From Candidatus Naiadarchaeum limnaeum (GTDB lineage: Archaea; Undinarchaeota; Undinarchaeia; Undinarchaeales; Naiadarchaeaceae): a stretch of DNA of 35,931 nt. The stretch spans positions 1-35,931 of the forward strand of contig DVAB01000016.1 in the NCBI GenBank assembly GCA_014189685.1. The letters run 5' to 3'. The notes under the pieces were generated by a model. The model was not told the DNA's origin. It saw nothing but the letters and a program-made list of their open reading frames with translations, and searched no databases. Positions 28,078-35,931 of the stretch are shown piece by piece. Numbering within the stretch: the stretch's first letter is position 1; each line of letters starts with the position of its first letter. Made by a program: the position numbers and the translations under genes.

Positions 28078-28217
28078 AAAAGCTTCCCCTGCGAGAAAAG
28101 AATTGCAAAAACTATTGTTAAAACAATAATTACAATTATTGCAAAAGCAACTGTTTTGCTTCCACTGCCTTCTTTTGGTTCTTTTTCATGTTCTGTTGGT
28201 TTTGCATGTTCTACCAT
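28074..28217 (-). CDS. 47-aa single-TM small protein
   Basis: My translation: MVEHAKPTEHEKEPKEGSGSKTVAFAIIVIIVLTIVFAILFSQGKLF*; its ATG overlaps the DP2 stop (ATGGTAG). Below the ORF-track cutoff. Confidence 0.6.
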   Translation of the reverse strand: MVEHAKPTEHEKEPKEGSGSKTVAFAIIVIIVLTIVFAILFSQGKLF

Positions 28218-31200
28218 TTTACTAGTTTCTGTTGTTTTTCTTTTCCAAATATTGAAGTTATGCTTTTATCCAGCAGCTCTATTTGTTGTTTAAGGTAATC
28301 AGAGGTTTTATACTTTTCAACCATTTCTTTAGAAATATTTAGATATTTTTTAATTGTCCCTGGGTGGACTGTTAAAGTTAAGTTTCCCCCGCATTTAGTG
28401 CAAACTCCGCTCAAAGGAGGTCTTCTGCATTTAGAATTGCACTTTGTGCAACGGATTTTTTGTCTTGAAAATGTACGGAGATTTCCTTTTATATCTGGAA
28501 TAAAGTGAGTGTTGATTATGCGCGCTGCAACATCGCTGGCATCAACCGCTCTTATCTTTTCAGCGAGATCCAATTGTTTTTTTAATTTATCCAGCATCTC
28601 GCCCTCCGTGTAAATATTTGATAATGGGGCGTTGTTAATGTCAATAACATCATGTGTATAGAGCCAGCCATTAAATGGATCTGAGGTGTTTACAATATCG
28701 CCAAATGTTTTTATCTGAACTTTTGCCGGATCGGATTTTTGTTCAGTCAATTCATAAAATTCCAAAGGATATTGGGAAACAATATCAACGTCATAAACCT
28801 CGCGATCAATTTCAAGCGGATTCAGAGTTGTTGTTATAACAAGCGGAGCATCCATTCTTCCTCCGCGCTTGTCTGGGATAAAACTTTTTGAAAAATTCAA
28901 AAAAGCATCGAGCAATAGCATAACTGAATCTTCATCTCCATCGCAATCCCTTCGTTTTGCATCATGAAATGCTGGGTTTGCAAAGCAAACTTTTGCTTTT
29001 GTGAATCCTATAATCCTGCCAATTATTCCGGTTGAGGTGTGCGGTGCAAGAGCAACAACCAAATGCCCAAGCAGTTCTTCCTTTCTTTTTACATTATAGA
29101 ATCTTGGGTATTTGTAAAATTTTTCTAATAGGTCATCAATAAATTTAGTTGCTGAAACTAGATAAGACGTACCGCTCTCATCTCCGTAGTCGCTAATTAG
29201 TATGTCCTGCGGCTTTAACTCGAGGATCTGGTTTTCGTCTGTCAGTTTTTTTCCATCTATATCAGATGAGTATCCAAGAACTTTGAGTTTTTCAACAGAA
29301 ACCCCAATTTCAATTGGTTTAAAATGAGATAACGGAGCGTTTGTTGCATCAAAGCGGACTGTCCCGTCCTTAAAGACGCAAACATGATTTTTTGCACGCA
29401 AAATTCCTTTTTCAATTGGCTCTGGAATTTTGTATTTAGAAGTCATTCCTATTACTCCAACTAGTTTGTTCAATTTTTTTTCATTGATGTTTTTGAATGC
29501 CCTATCGACAAGCTCCTTTAGGTTTATCTCCCTCCGATCAAAGGATTTTGTTTCAATTCCACAGCTTGGGCATTTGTCTTTTGTTGTTTCGCGCCTGCAG
29601 TTTGGGCAGAAATTAATTAGTTTTGTGCGGCTTGAGCAGTTTTGGCAGTATGGAAATATTGTTTTTGAATTGCAGTTATCACATTTAAATATAGCAATCT
29701 CTGTTTTCTGGGTAACAACCGCAGTTGCTGCTTTTATCAGATCTCGAATTCTGCCTTTTGTAATTCCTGTTGGAAAAAGAACGTTTGGGGGTGGCACCAT
29801 TTTTCTTGGCTTTGCTTTCTCTGGGCGCCCCATTCTTGCACCGATATAAGTTGGGGTGCGCTTTTTTATTTTAAAGGGGGCTATTTTATTCAAGATTTCA
29901 ACAACATCTTTGCTACTGTTCTTTTCTTTTATTATTGAGAGGATTTTTTCAGCGCCTCTTTCATTTAATGAAAGAGAATATAAAAGTGCTTTTGTGTTGT
30001 TTGGACTGAGGATTACTTTCTTTCCATTAACCCCATGAAAAACGCAAAGTGCTTCAAGAATTTCTTTTAAATCTTTTGAATAAGTAAGTTCGTTCTTTTC
30101 AGAAAAGTTTTTTTCGCTCAGATAATTTACAAGGCGCTCAAGCTGTGATTTTGTTATGTCATGCCAGAAAAAAGTATACTTTGGATGCATTGGAATGTTA
30201 TAAGTTCTTGAGATCTCAACTGCTTTTTCAAAAGATGGGGCAGGATATGGTTTTTCTGTATACTCAGCAATTCGGGCGTCCTTTATTTTTCGCTCAGAGG
30301 CGGCTTTCTTAACCTCCTGTGCCCACCATTCTTCACAATACGTGCTTGGAAGAAGTTTGTGATTGTTTTCAATAAAATCGCCTGCAGAGATTAAAATATC
30401 GCCAAGATTAAGAATTTTTTTAATGGTTTTGCGATGTTTTTCTGCCTCTTCAACAGTATTTATCTGTAAAACTTCCCCATCGTCCAGAACAACAGTTGGA
30501 CCGTTTATTGTTTCACAAGGAGTTACTATTCCTGCTTTCCCAGGCAACTCGAGGCGAAGTTGAGTTCCAATTGCAATAAATTCTCCGAGAACATACATTG
30601 TTGCGGGATTTACCGCAACAGCAGAGTATCCTGTTGCCCGTGTACGCCCATATCTTAGATTAAACCCACCTCTTCTAGATGGGTGAGAAAAAACAGGTCT
30701 GCCCGCGGGTATTTCCTGCATATATTTGTCACTTCCTTCAATTTCGCTGGCCGGCTCCTCAGTTATCTCATCTATGAACTCCCCAGCTTCTTTTGTCACG
30801 TCTACAAATTTTCCTAACGCGGAAACGTCCTCGATCTCAATTTCTTGAAGCCAGGGATATTCTTCTGTAGGCGCGGATTCTATAATTGCCTCTAAGCGCT
30901 CGTGTGCATATGGAACTTCTTTGGCAACGCGCTTTACTAATAATCCTTCCAGCCATCTCCAATCCAGCCCATATTTTTCTTCAAGTGGTTTTAATTTTTT
31001 AACAAGCTTTGGGGCTTTTTGTGCAATTCCTTCTGCAACAACAAGGCACATTCCTCCGCGAACGCGGTTTGTTTCAACTCGGCCTAAGTCTCTGTAAGTA
31101 ATTACTTCAAATTCCTCTGTTGGCTCGCCATCAATGCAAACAGGAACGTTTCTTACTATAGTTTCAATCTCTTCCTGCGTTGGCATATATTGCAAGTGAA

Positions 31201-31768
31201 CGTTTCTTTTATACCAAAGTATTTCTTCCCCGTATCTTCCGATTTCCTGGAGAGTTGGCTTGTACTTTCCTAGGCCAAGAGATTTTCTCACATAGTCTGC
31301 AACAATAATTGAAAGCGCTTCTGCTGTTCCACCTGCAGCCCTTATCGGGCCGGAGTAATAGACAGAAAGATATTCAGTTCCGTCTGGGTTTTTCTTTATA
31401 CGGACTTTTGCAATTCCTTCAATCGGGGCCGAAACTGCACCCTGGGTTAAGTAGGCTAATCCTGCTCTAATCGCAAGCTCTGAAGCAGTTTCTCTATCAC
31501 TTGTCTCAGAGAGATTTTTTGATATTATATAGTCGGCAAGTTTAAACGCGACTTCTTCATCAGTCTTGTATTGCTTTTGCAGCTGCCTAATAATATCGGC
31601 TATTCCTTTTAACTCAATTAGCCCCTCTACTTTATCTGCAATATCTTTCGCGATATAAATCTCAGGAACAAGTGCATAATCGAACCCTCTTGAGCGTGCT
31701 TGCTTAGCTATTTCAAATTCTTGAAAGACTCTTTTTTCTATTTGTTCTTGGTATTCTCTAGTATTCAT
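28211..31768 (-). CDS. polC: archaeal DNA polymerase D large subunit (DP2)
   Basis: RRDCDGDEDSVMLLLDAFLNFSKSFIPDKRGGRMDAPLVITT catalytic core; CxxC zinc motifs; no intein-sized insertion. Start likely MNTREYQEQ (31768); the listed ORF starts at 31792. Confidence 0.97.
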   Translation of the reverse strand: MNTREYQEQIEKRVFQEFEIAKQARSRGFDYALVPEIYIAKDIADKVEGLIELKGIADIIRQLQKQYKTDEEVAFKLADYIISKNLSETSDRETASELAIRAGLAYLTQGAVSAPIEGIAKVRIKKNPDGTEYLSVYYSGPIRAAGGTAEALSIIVADYVRKSLGLGKYKPTLQEIGRYGEEILWYKRNVHLQYMPTQEEIETIVRNVPVCIDGEPTEEFEVITYRDLGRVETNRVRGGMCLVVAEGIAQKAPKLVKKLKPLEEKYGLDWRWLEGLLVKRVAKEVPYAHERLEAIIESAPTEEYPWLQEIEIEDVSALGKFVDVTKEAGEFIDEITEEPASEIEGSDKYMQEIPAGRPVFSHPSRRGGFNLRYGRTRATGYSAVAVNPATMYVLGEFIAIGTQLRLELPGKAGIVTPCETINGPTVVLDDGEVLQINTVEEAEKHRKTIKKILNLGDILISAGDFIENNHKLLPSTYCEEWWAQEVKKAASERKIKDARIAEYTEKPYPAPSFEKAVEISRTYNIPMHPKYTFFWHDITKSQLERLVNYLSEKNFSEKNELTYSKDLKEILEALCVFHGVNGKKVILSPNNTKALLYSLSLNERGAEKILSIIKEKNSSKDVVEILNKIAPFKIKKRTPTYIGARMGRPEKAKPRKMVPPPNVLFPTGITKGRIRDLIKAATAVVTQKTEIAIFKCDNCNSKTIFPYCQNCSSRTKLINFCPNCRRETTKDKCPSCGIETKSFDRREINLKELVDRAFKNINEKKLNKLVGVIGMTSKYKIPEPIEKGILRAKNHVCVFKDGTVRFDATNAPLSHFKPIEIGVSVEKLKVLGYSSDIDGKKLTDENQILELKPQDILISDYGDESGTSYLVSATKFIDDLLEKFYKYPRFYNVKRKEELLGHLVVALAPHTSTGIIGRIIGFTKAKVCFANPAFHDAKRRDCDGDEDSVMLLLDAFLNFSKSFIPDKRGGRMDAPLVITTTLNPLEIDREVYDVDIVSQYPLEFYELTEQKSDPAKVQIKTFGDIVNTSDPFNGWLYTHDVIDINNAPLSNIYTEGEMLDKLKKQLDLAEKIRAVDASDVAARIINTHFIPDIKGNLRTFSRQKIRCTKCNSKCRRPPLSGVCTKCGGNLTLTVHPGTIKKYLNISKEMVEKYKTSDYLKQQIELLDKSITSIFGKEKQQKLVKW

Positions 31769-31791
31769 TTTCGAACTCCTGTGAGACAGCA

Positions 31792-31808
31792 CGGAAACTT
31801 TGTTTCCG
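31792..31808 (-). other. short hairpin between DP1 and DP2
   Basis: CGGAAAC-TTT-GTTTCCG perfect 7-bp stem. Confidence 0.75.
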
Positions 31809-31815
31809 AATCATT

Positions 31816-33315
31816 TTAAAATTCTAATAATCTTATTTGCCTTGTTTTTAAATTTAGGAGGGGCACCCTAGCGGGAGTTGGCTCGTGGCCGAGGAATTTT
31901 TGAAAATCTGTTACGTCCTGCCATGTTCCTGAGTTTATCAAAGTCACCCCCCTGTAATTAACAGCTCCGTTTGAATGAACGTGGCCAGTATGTATAATAT
32001 CTATATCCTCAGGAATTGCGAGGGGGTCTGATTCAAATTCTGCAGTCACTATTCCGCTTTCATATTGTGGGCTAAGATGTCTTTTTTTAAGCAGAGTTAG
32101 CATAACTTTCTCAGGATGTTTATAACCATCTTTTAAATTTGGATTCTGTGGGACTATAGTATCAATTGAGGTTCCATGATACAGTAAAACATTCAGCCCG
32201 TTGTTTTCCTGCGGGCGAATTTTAACAATGCCTGGGCTTGAAATTAATGTTGTGTTAGGCAGTTCGTATAAATCAGGAGCAACGTCTTTTTCAATTGGTG
32301 GTTGGGGTTGGGCTAATCGAACATAATCGTGGTTTCCTGGGCACATGATTATCTGAATGCTTTCCGGGATTTTTTCAAAAAATTTTGCGGTTTCTTTATA
32401 CTGGGCAAAAATGTCCCTAATATTGAGCTCTTTTTCCTGCCCAGGATAGACTCCGATTCCGTCAACAATATCACCTGCAACAAAAATATATTTTAAATTA
32501 TCAATTAATTCTGCCTGTTCTTCCCAGATAAGCGCCCCTGTTTCTTTTCCATTAATAAAAGCGAGCATGTTTTCAAATTTGTCAGAGAGGAATTTTTTAC
32601 TTCCAACATGGACGTCGCTTAAAAAAGCCGCGTAAACAGTATTTTCTAAAGTTTTTAACTCTTTTTTTATGGGCAAGTCTGGGACTGTTATTTCTTCAAC
32701 AAAAATCACGCCTTTGTTTATTGTTCCTGTTATCCCTATCACTTCATCAAAAAGCATTTCCTCTGCCTGAGGTATGAGCTCTTTATTGGTTATGATTGCG
32801 GTTGTTTCTCCAGATAAGTCCTCGAGTTTAAGTATAATGTTCCCACGGTGTGTTTTTCTTCTATCTGAGATAATTCCAATAACACTAACTTTTTCATTAT
32901 TAATTTTTTTCAGGTTAGAAATGGACTGAACATTTTTAAGTCTGTTTTGTAAGTATCGTTTGTACTGATTAAAACGCATTGCAAAATATTTAGAAATGTC
33001 CTTTATACTTTCAAGGGGTTTTGTGCTTGCATAGTTAGCGACGATCTCAACTCGTTCCCTGGTGGTTTTTTGTTTTGCTTCTTTTAAAGGTTGGGCTTGG
33101 GCAAGGTGTTTTGGGAGTATCAGAAACTCATCGGATTCTTTTAACTGTAAAATGAGTTGCTCTACCCTCTCGTTTGGGTTCGGGTGTTGTGCTAAAAGCT
33201 CAAGTGCGTTTTTTGCTATCTGCAGCCTGCTGGCTAGAATTCTTTTCAAAAGCTCGTGCTTTAATTCGCCTGTCTGGGTTTTTGGGGAATCAAATCCACC
33301 AAGTGTTAAGCTCAT
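31816..33315 (-). CDS. polB: archaeal DNA polymerase D small subunit (DP1, exonuclease)
   Basis: OB fold plus phosphoesterase: AAFLSDVHVGSKKF, VAGDIVDGIGVYPGQEKEL, MCPGNHDYVR, HTGHVHSNG. Confidence 0.96.
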   Translation of the reverse strand: MSLTLGGFDSPKTQTGELKHELLKRILASRLQIAKNALELLAQHPNPNERVEQLILQLKESDEFLILPKHLAQAQPLKEAKQKTTRERVEIVANYASTKPLESIKDISKYFAMRFNQYKRYLQNRLKNVQSISNLKKINNEKVSVIGIISDRRKTHRGNIILKLEDLSGETTAIITNKELIPQAEEMLFDEVIGITGTINKGVIFVEEITVPDLPIKKELKTLENTVYAAFLSDVHVGSKKFLSDKFENMLAFINGKETGALIWEEQAELIDNLKYIFVAGDIVDGIGVYPGQEKELNIRDIFAQYKETAKFFEKIPESIQIIMCPGNHDYVRLAQPQPPIEKDVAPDLYELPNTTLISSPGIVKIRPQENNGLNVLLYHGTSIDTIVPQNPNLKDGYKHPEKVMLTLLKKRHLSPQYESGIVTAEFESDPLAIPEDIDIIHTGHVHSNGAVNYRGVTLINSGTWQDVTDFQKFLGHEPTPARVPLLNLKTRQIRLLEF

Positions 33316-34505
33316 GCGAGCTCATATTTGAGAATTTCGCGGCCTTTCTCAAGGGCAGTTCCAACAACGTCCAAAGATATTGTTCTTGTTCTACCATATC
33401 TTCCTTTAGATATAATGTTTGCTCCTATCAAGCCGAGCATCTCAAGTTCTGAGATAAGATCAGAAACGCGCCTTTGAGTAAGGGGGGTTAAATTATATTT
33501 TTTGCAAAGTTTCCCATATATTTCAAAAATATCCCCTGTTGAGATATCTCCTTTTTCCAAATCCTTTAAATAGATTATACTGTACAAAACAAGTTGTGAC
33601 TGGCGCGGTTGGGTTTTGATTATTTCAACAACGCGATCTGTGTCTATTTTTTTCTGCGCAGTATCAACATGATTAATAGTAACGCTAGGTTCTCCGTTGC
33701 GCTCAGCAAGCTCAACTGCTACTCTTAAAAGATCCAAAGCACGGCGAGCGTCTCCGTGCTCCTGCGCGGCAAGAGCGGCGCATTTCTCTATTACCCCCTC
33801 TTCTAAAACCCCTGGGCGCAACGCTATCTCTGCTCTTTTGAAAAGAATGTCTTTTAATTGGGGGGCATTATAAGGGGGAAAAACAAGCTCTTCTTCAGAG
33901 AGCGAGGACCTAATACGGGGGTCGAGGTTGTTGGTAAACCCCGAGCTGTTTGAAATCCCTATGAGGCTTACCCTCGAATTTTGAAGTTGTGTGTTTACCC
34001 TTGTTAGATTATAAAGTGTGCTTGTGTCTGTTAGAGAGTCAATCTCATCAAGAATTAATATGAAGGTACTTTTGTTTTTATCAAGTGTTTGGATGAATTT
34101 TCGATATACTTCTTCAGTAGGTAGCCCGGTAACCGGAACTTGCTCCCCTAACTGATAAAGAATGTGGGCAAAGAGTCGGTAGGGGGTGTTTATTTTGTCT
34201 ATTTTGCAATTTAAATAAAGAGCGATTAAATTTAATCCATGTGTTTTTGCCCTTTTCCCAATCTCACCACAAATAAATTTGCTAACAAGGGTTTTGCCTG
34301 TTCCTGTTTTCCCATAGATAAATATATTTGAGGGTTTTTCACCACGCAGTGTATGGACAAGTATTGTAGCAAGTTGTTTTACCTGCTCCTCACGGTGTGG
34401 AACGTTTTCTGGTGTGTGTGTTTCTTGGAGTGCCTCTTTTTTAATAAATAGTGGTTGTTGGTTTAGGAAAATATCAAATAAGTCTTGTAATGATTTCTGC
34501 GCCAT
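33312..34505 (-). CDS. cdc6: Orc1/Cdc6 replication initiator
   Basis: IFIYGKTGTGKTLVSKFI, LILDEIDSL, VSLIGISNSSGF, HGDARRALDLLR, C-terminal wHTH. Start likely MAQKSLQDLF (34505). Confidence 0.96.
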   Translation of the reverse strand: MAQKSLQDLFDIFLNQQPLFIKKEALQETHTPENVPHREEQVKQLATILVHTLRGEKPSNIFIYGKTGTGKTLVSKFICGEIGKRAKTHGLNLIALYLNCKIDKINTPYRLFAHILYQLGEQVPVTGLPTEEVYRKFIQTLDKNKSTFILILDEIDSLTDTSTLYNLTRVNTQLQNSRVSLIGISNSSGFTNNLDPRIRSSLSEEELVFPPYNAPQLKDILFKRAEIALRPGVLEEGVIEKCAALAAQEHGDARRALDLLRVAVELAERNGEPSVTINHVDTAQKKIDTDRVVEIIKTQPRQSQLVLYSIIYLKDLEKGDISTGDIFEIYGKLCKKYNLTPLTQRRVSDLISELEMLGLIGANIISKGRYGRTRTISLDVVGTALEKGREILKYELA

Positions 34506-34570: not shown

Positions 34571-34582
34571 GGTATATAAAGG
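34571..34582 (-). promoter_or_regulatory. putative cdc6 TATA box
   Basis: Minus strand CCTTTATATACC about 70 nt upstream of ATG 34505. Confidence 0.45.
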
Positions 34583-34617: not shown

Positions 34618-34638
34618 ACCCCTTTGCTTCCTTTGGAA
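34618..34638 (-). promoter_or_regulatory. ORB-like Orc1/Cdc6 binding element 1
   Basis: Minus strand TTCCAAAGGAAGCAAAGGGGT: imperfect dyad plus G-string, matching the archaeal ORB pattern (TTCC..nGGAAAC.AAGGGGT). Confidence 0.75.
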
Positions 34639-34762
34639 CTTTTAATTTTTATTTTTGTTTTAGAGTAGAAATTGTGGGATTGGTTTTGTGTGTTTTTATA
34701 TTTTATTTATTTACTATATAGATAATAAATAATAATTATAAATAATAACAAACAAAACAACA
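34639..34762. other. predicted duplex unwinding element of oriC
   Basis: 124 nt, about 16% G+C by hand count, between two inverted ORB-like elements and upstream of cdc6. Confidence 0.7.
34707..34728. repeat. 22-bp palindromic repeat copy 1 (inside the predicted DUE)
   Basis: TTATTTACTATATAGATAATAA; dyad TTATT-nn-CTATATAG-nn-AATAA. Confidence 0.8.
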
Positions 34763-34783
34763 TTCCATGAGAAACAATGGGGT
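34763..34783 (+). promoter_or_regulatory. ORB-like Orc1/Cdc6 binding element 2
   Basis: Plus strand TTCCATGAGAAACAATGGGGT; 16/21 identical to element 1, inverted relative to it. Confidence 0.72.
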
Positions 34784-34788
34784 AGGAC

Positions 34789-35337
34789 TCAATTGGTTAA
34801 AAATCGTTCTATCTCTAAATGTAAAGAGTCAAGTTCTTTAACCTCTATTTTTTTCCCTCTAAACCAACCAACCGCTGATATAATTTTTTTATCCAAACCC
34901 TCAAGCATGTTTAAATTTGGTTTTTTTGTTTTTGTAATAACAACAAACTCCTGTCTCCACTGCTGTGCTTTTTCTTTTAAAAATTTTACCCAATCAACAT
35001 AATCTTTTGGCTCCCGATACCCAAGGCCCAGTGTTTTAACAATTATATGCAAATCATCATTCGCTTTTTCCTCTGCGGCAGGCCCGAGAACATAGTATCG
35101 CCTCAGACTAAAATCACCCCAAGTGAAGGCGCCTTTTTCCTCCTTCATTCCAACAAGCGCAAACTCATCCAATTCAACCCCCTTTCTTAAATGATAATAC
35201 ATACTTCTCAAATCAATTGGAGAAAAGGCGCCCTCATAGACTTTGTAAATCTCATAACCATAACTAACCCCCAGTGCATCAACTATTTGTTGCATTCTCT
35301 CCCGAATTAAAGACTTTATAGGTCTCCCGCGCGCCAC
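34789..35337 (-). CDS. uncharacterised oriC-adjacent protein, possibly a wHTH regulator
   Basis: RERMQQIVDALGVSYGYEIYKVYEGAFSPIDLRSMYYHLRKGVEL is wHTH-like. The listed ORF starts at TTG 35349; GTG 35337 (VARGRPIKSL) is plausible. Confidence 0.6.
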   Translation of the reverse strand: MARGRPIKSLIRERMQQIVDALGVSYGYEIYKVYEGAFSPIDLRSMYYHLRKGVELDEFALVGMKEEKGAFTWGDFSLRRYYVLGPAAEEKANDDLHIIVKTLGLGYREPKDYVDWVKFLKEKAQQWRQEFVVITKTKKPNLNMLEGLDKKIISAVGWFRGKKIEVKELDSLHLEIERFLTN

Positions 35338-35357: not shown

Positions 35358-35379
35358 TTATTTACTATATAGATAATAA
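35358..35379. repeat. 22-bp palindromic repeat copy 2 (promoter of the oriC-adjacent gene)
   Basis: TTATTTACTATATAGATAATAA, identical to 34707-34728; centre about 31 nt upstream of GTG 35337. Confidence 0.8.
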
Positions 35380-35446: not shown

Positions 35447-35931
35447 TTATGGCCTTCCCTCTAGCGCCCGATTTACAGAAATTCCTTGAACGACCTTTCT
35501 TTTAATTTCCTCAATTCGATTATCCAAACCCAACTCATTTAATTGCCTTTCAATCTGCCTAAACTTATTCTCATATTTGTTATAACAAACAATTGCAGCC
35601 GCGAGCGCAGAAACCTCATGGAAATCTTCTGTTGTTTTCTTATATCTATCTAAAAAAACAGAAACAAGCTCGCTCTTTCCGCGCCGTCCAAGGTTTTTTT
35701 GCGGCGCTTCAACTCTTGTATTAAATGCGGCCGCAAGCTTTTCAGTTGTTGCCGGAACCTTTACCACATCAACAGAAAACAATAAGGGTTGTCCAAAAAT
35801 TTGTATATAGCTCTGCTGCTCGCTCTGAGAGAAATTTTTCTTGCTAACCAACCCCAACAAACCGCCGCGTAAGTCAAGAACAGCAACAGCTGTTGTAGTT
35901 CCAGCGTCTATGCCAACTATTAACCCCCGTA
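35447..35931 (-). CDS. DUF460-family RNase H-fold protein, truncated at the contig edge
   Basis: In-frame translation to the edge: RGLIVGIDAGTTTAVAVLDLRGGLLGLVSKKNFSQSEQQ...TEDFHEVSALAAAIVCYNKYENKFRQIERQL; YqgF/RNase H-like GIDAGTT motif and late acidic HEVSALAAA. Confidence 0.78.
   Translation of the reverse strand, partial: RGLIVGIDAGTTTAVAVLDLRGGLLGLVSKKNFSQSEQQSYIQIFGQPLLFSVDVVKVPATTEKLAAAFNTRVEAPQKNLGRRGKSELVSVFLDRYKKTTEDFHEVSALAAAIVCYNKYENKFRQIERQLNELGLDNRIEEIKRKVVQGISVNRALEGRP

Follow-up and report, generated by a model that had tools for sequence, protein, structure and literature searches.

We propose that the interval 34618-34783 of contig DVAB01000016.1, from assembly GCA_014189685.1 of the uncultured archaeon Candidatus Naiadarchaeum limnaeum (phylum Undinarchaeota), is an Orc1/Cdc6-type chromosomal replication origin, in which a conserved palindrome would be bound by a dimer of a neighbouring winged-helix protein. 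We put the probability of this whole model at roughly 70%; of its parts, the identity of the interval as the chromosomal origin is very probable, and membership of the palindrome (henceforth the box) and the winged-helix protein in that origin is likely. The analysis started from positions 1-35,931 of the contig (the window; the genome is labelled G000 below) and from an original prediction that the interval is oriC, a claim which is now supported by a pair of inverted origin recognition boxes (ORBs) that is unique in the genome, by conservation of ORBs among relatives and by a switch in strand composition found in five genomes. Three things are new relative to that prediction: the polarity of the switch, which is a skew maximum, a second motif within the AT-rich element, and a winged-helix protein that tracks this motif.

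As had been predicted, the interval is bounded by two ORB 21-mers in inverted orientation, one proximal to cdc6 (34618..34638, minus strand; TTCCAAAGGAAGCAAAGGGGT) and one distal (34763..34783, plus strand; TTCCATGAGAAACAATGGGGT), which are identical at 16 of 21 positions. The proximal box was supported by sequence match, by a DPANN profile and by conservation upstream of cdc6, and the distal box ends 5 nt ahead of the stop codon of the winged-helix gene. Each ORB has a dyad and a G-string, the dyads being uneven (TTCC...GGAA on the left, TTCC...GAGAA on the right), and the pair is arranged around an AT-rich putative unwinding element, as is characteristic of archaeal origins. This element (34639..34762) spans 124 nt and its G+C content, anticipated to be about 16%, was measured at 16.1%, the minimum for any 124-nt stretch of the window. 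An Rfam scan for structured RNA in the gap gave zero matches at E ≤ 1.

The ORB pair stands out at every scale that we searched. With the consensus TTCCANNNGAAACAAAGGGGT and up to 3 mismatches, the window contains exactly two matches, namely the two ORBs, where 0.03 would be expected by chance and where none of the shuffled sequences had two. A profile derived from the origins of other DPANN likewise places the two ORBs (scores of 28.7 and 25.5) first and second within the window, the third-best site scoring 14.2 and thus falling inside the range of the Markov controls. Across the genome as a whole (984 kb in 52 contigs), the runners-up match clearly less well and are located elsewhere; the pair is therefore not one that is scattered over unrelated loci, which the original prediction had named as grounds for rejecting it.

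As expected of an ORB/cdc6-type origin, the initiator gene orc1/cdc6 (33312..34505, minus strand; Pfam Cdc6_C and Cdc6_lid) is adjacent to the interval; it is the only copy in the genome. Alignment with four relatives fixes its start codon at the ATG at 34503-34505, so that the nearer ORB is 112 nt away (about 110 nt had been estimated), and a probable TATA box of cdc6, read from the sequence, lies between that ORB and the gene (34573..34580, minus strand; TTTATATA). Downstream of cdc6 we identified both subunits of DNA polymerase D that had been reported there, the small subunit DP1 (31816..33315, minus strand) and the large subunit DP2 (28211..31792, minus strand).

This arrangement is widely conserved. 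Of the 65 DPANN loci compared, 62 carry one or more ORBs in the 600 bp upstream of cdc6 and 39 have the convergent layout there, against a background of 0.05 ORBs per kb elsewhere in these loci. Convergent ORBs precede cdc6 in all four Undinarchaeales relatives that possess the gene, and whole-genome scans of five Undinarchaeales genomes found no ORB clusters away from the cdc6 gap. A further locus titled Candidatus Undinarchaeales (L111; JASMDC010000003.1) has ORBs before cdc6 and lacks both the skew switch and the winged-helix gene; its Cdc6 branches apart from those of other Undinarchaeales, and the taxon label may be wrong.

Inside the AT-rich element, we found a 22-bp near-palindrome (34707..34728; TTATTATCTATATAGTAAATAA on the minus strand), an identical copy of which is located in the promoter region of the winged-helix gene (35358..35379). 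The score of this repeat was not reached by any of 300 Markov controls. The general form of the palindrome, TTATTWTCYATATRGWWAATAA, is present both at the origin and at the winged-helix promoter in five out of five Undinarchaeales genomes. Sites of this form were about 370-fold denser in origin regions (13 in 6.8 kb) than in the comparison sequence (3 in 583 kb), and a whole-genome search of two relatives, G003 and G004, found them only at the origin and at the promoter of the winged-helix gene. This second motif of the origin has apparently not been described so far.

Additional copies of the palindrome were seen at other loci. One precedes the KH-domain/Top6B operon in the present genome (L221; G000 C40:26521), and the relative G001 has copies near the same operon and near UDG, Hef, TBP and thymidylate kinase genes (L225, L231, L233, L235, L228 and L227; contigs C25, C184, C181, C68 and C154). 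The proximity of G001 copies to repair, topology and nucleotide genes suggests a transcriptional role as well, and copies before these genes could represent a replication and repair regulon. Large surface-protein-like genes flank further copies on both sides (among L222 at G000 C44:7292 and 7371, L223, L230 in G001, and L237 at G002 C23:16169), and two are found near ftsZ (G001 C19 and G002 C23).

The winged-helix gene (34789..35337, minus strand) encodes a PadR-like protein of 182 aa with a probable GTG start at 35337, as judged by alignment, and has kept its place next to the origin in Undinarchaeales as well as in some further DPANN. The window protein matched no Pfam or NCBIfam family, and the Pfam PadR family (PF03551) gave a weak match in 4 of 21 relatives (best E 4.5e-5); a search of PDB sequences with winged-helix profiles returned nothing significant. 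Its AlphaFold2 model is a confident winged helix (pLDDT 89.9), for which the top Foldseek matches were PadR regulators (E 5.5e-4, with low TM-scores of about 0.3). Proteins of the PadR-like type commonly recognise palindromes as dimers and in many cases regulate their own gene; the palindrome before the winged-helix gene fits self-control of this type, and it also occurs before several, although not all, of the winged-helix homologues in distant archaea. The protein has in common with PadR-like regulators the predicted winged-helix fold, a helical C-terminal part and a palindrome before its own gene, but differs from them in the missing Pfam match, the low TM-scores and the association with an origin. 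In family f22 and in G104 (L187 and L191-L194), the neighbour of cdc6 encodes a diverged relative of the protein, and the gap contains ORBs but no recognisable box; this relative may use another motif.

To quantify the association between box and protein, we scored 81 other origins over as much as 700 bp before cdc6, using the Undinarchaeales consensus alone as the reference. At up to 3 mismatches, the box was detected in 20 out of 30 origins with the protein and in 2 out of 51 without it (Fisher 1e-9), a value that is inflated by relatedness and must be read as such because the Cdc6 tree provides few independent contrasts (3-5, with concordant outnumbering opposing ones, below significance). 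Two of the protein-positive loci (L265 and L064) are apparently one genome counted twice. Both box-positive, protein-negative genomes (L052 and L107) sit within a protein-positive clade of the Cdc6 tree, so these MAGs may be incomplete. Shuffled palindromes also associate with the protein, via AT-richness, the best of 20 reaching 1.4e-6 compared with 1.3e-10 for the real one. The box is weak or absent despite the protein in L092, L081, L116, L074, L263 and L266. In G082, where the winged-helix gene is 309 kb from cdc6, the box is found at both places.

The position of the box relative to the ORBs bears on whether it is more than a promoter element. In protein-positive genomes the best box falls between the inverted ORBs in 26 out of 29 cases (9.8 expected). 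In G001 and in G002, the best box is found just outside the pair. Among 500 shuffled palindromes, 6 place as many inside the ORB pair and 1 matches as well. One may suppose that the locus is an ordinary ORB/cdc6 origin and that the palindrome is merely an operator, promoter or TATA-like element with no role in initiation. This would agree with the copies before the winged-helix gene and with the G001 copies close to genes for UDG, Hef, TBP and thymidylate kinase and to those of the Top6B operon, as well as with the AT-rich composition of the palindrome, whose core CTATATAG resembles a TATA element, and with the AT-rich shuffled palindromes, which also favour the gap (14.5 out of 24 on average). 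However, the placement between inverted ORBs includes genomes in which the winged-helix gene is distant, the sites in G003 and G004 are confined to the origin and to the promoter of the winged-helix gene, and the cores CCATATGG and CAATATTG, found at many sites, are not TATA boxes. Considering this, we regard a purely regulatory palindrome as unlikely.

To locate the switch in strand composition, we took GC skew at third codon positions for each gene strand; since the strands are measured separately, gene orientation cannot produce the signal. We then fitted a model in which gene strand and side were the factors, tried every change point and assessed the best by permutation. The best change point was the ORB-bearing gap upstream of cdc6 in five Undinarchaeales genomes, this one included (34699, inside the AT-rich element, here; 35140, 19660, 20667 and 4305 in the relatives), with jumps of -0.41, -0.73, -0.84, -0.69 and -0.28 in the same genome order (permutation p 0.0005-0.003; the G001 fit has just three genes on one side). 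The interval thus passed the skew-extremum check that had been suggested for it. In G002, G003 and G004, third-position skew drops across the origin, from roughly +0.4 to roughly -0.4, and the raw cumulative GC skew reaches its maximum 490-807 bp upstream of cdc6.

In the window by itself, the raw cumulative skew has its maximum at 30250, because of gene orientation. The contig terminates at a DUF460 gene (window 35447-35931; the stretch compared with it on contig C37 is 1-2662). Given that the gene order in G001 is Hef, a 137-aa gene, DUF460, winged-helix and cdc6, and that homologues of Hef and the 137-aa gene open C37, gene order indicates that C37 continues the window on the right with a small gap between them. 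The skew shift on C37 was predicted before it was read and was found in both gene sets (0.00 versus +0.39 in the window for plus-strand genes, -0.33 versus +0.05 for minus-strand genes), and the cumulative third-position skew of window plus C37 peaks at 34795.

The replication-strand switch expected of an origin is therefore present, but with the extremum being a cumulative GC-skew maximum (i.e., the plus strand changes from G-rich to C-rich moving rightward), its polarity is inverted relative to bacteria. If forks run outward from the site, the leading strand would be C- and A-rich, the mirror image of the bacterial pattern. According to the bacterial rule, a cumulative maximum marks the terminus, and one could read the site as a terminus on which forks converge, with the origin elsewhere: the signs of GC and AT skew are both as that rule would have them. 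Yet in five genomes the switch coincides with the sole cdc6 gene and the sole ORB cluster. In G003, of which roughly half was sampled, the asymmetry is strongest at the site and declines toward zero farther out, and the sampled half contained no opposite switch of similar size. Origins mapped in haloarchaea are also reported to have inverted skew (PMC2841640), and taken together these observations make a terminus very unlikely. Least credible of all is that the ORBs serve cdc6 autoregulation only, in a region that is not an origin. The position of the proximal ORB immediately upstream of the likely cdc6 TATA box (34573-34580) speaks for this reading, which would, however, leave both the five-genome skew switch and the conserved inverted ORB pair around an AT-rich element unexplained.

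Inverted skew at origins is itself already known from haloarchaea, where it was set against bacteria and non-halophilic archaea (Hartman et al., PMC2841640). Undinarchaeota resemble haloarchaea in having an origin skew opposite to that of bacteria, but they are an AT-rich DPANN lineage that is not known as halophilic. Their jump is also much larger than at the other archaeal origins measured here, nine cdc6 loci with jumps of at most 0.14 in either direction. We considered three explanations for the inversion and rejected each. Absence of PolB fails because PolB was found in this genome and in 4 of 5 relatives. Loss of uracil-DNA glycosylase (UDG; PF03167) does not track the skew: in whole-genome searches it was not found in this genome or in G002, and it is present in G001, G003, G004 and G005. 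Finally, the inversion is not general to DPANN, other members of which have weak jumps of mixed sign.

In the model that we favour, an ORB/Cdc6 origin with a protein-bound palindrome, Orc1/Cdc6 on the two inverted ORBs would direct MCM to the AT-rich stretch, and two forks would depart outward, as expected from the family. A dimer of the neighbouring winged-helix protein most likely binds the 22-bp palindrome in that stretch, and the protein probably tunes its own promoter via the identical palindrome there. As the palindrome is at both places, the protein would couple initiation to its own abundance and also, in some relatives, to further genes.

Known archaeal origins offer partial parallels. 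Pyrococcus oriC and Sulfolobus oriC1 (PMC4010727, PMC12141716) likewise have inverted ORBs with G-strings on both sides of an AT-rich element directly before cdc6, with a single cdc6 in the genome as a further likeness, whereas the conserved 22-bp palindrome, the winged-helix gene beside the far ORB and the strong inverted skew set the present origin apart. In Sulfolobus oriC1, whose layout the present origin matches, the essential ucm motif occupies the middle of the tract between the inverted ORB2 and ORB3 and is the binding site of UBP, a protein that contacts MCM (PMC12141716). Common to the ucm/UBP system of Sulfolobales and Desulfurococcales and to the present origin is an additional motif within the AT-rich element that the inverted ORBs enclose, one that also occurs elsewhere on the chromosome (PMC12141716). 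However, ucm is 11 bp long rather than a 22-bp palindrome; UBP is a strand-swapped dimer that binds DNA through a beta-hairpin, whereas the protein described here is a predicted winged helix with best matches to PadR-type proteins; and the sites counted by sequence here are far fewer than the 329 ChIP peaks of UBP (PMC12141716). Because motif and predicted fold differ, the Undinarchaeota element is not a member of the ucm/UBP system, although the palindrome and the winged-helix protein may do a similar job with an unrelated protein. WhiP, the winged-helix initiator of Sulfolobus oriC3 (PMC4010727, PMC12141716), is similar in that a winged-helix gene lies beside the origin, but the origin here additionally has ORBs and cdc6.

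A wider generalisation, which we consider about as likely as not, would be that Undinarchaeota and many Woesearchaeota-like DPANN have a second, ORB-independent origin element, the 22-bp palindrome of the unwinding region, bound by a new PadR-like factor, which would also control its own gene and, in some lineages, repair and topology genes; this would be an independent counterpart of UBP, with the strand bias of Undinarchaeota opposite to that of bacteria. The motif-protein pair is concrete and conserved across several DPANN lineages. Skew-based origin calls in Undinarchaeota would exchange origin and terminus, as would growth-rate estimates built on such calls, and the strong inverted skew makes this lineage well suited to finding out which of the two replication strands mutates, and for what reason.
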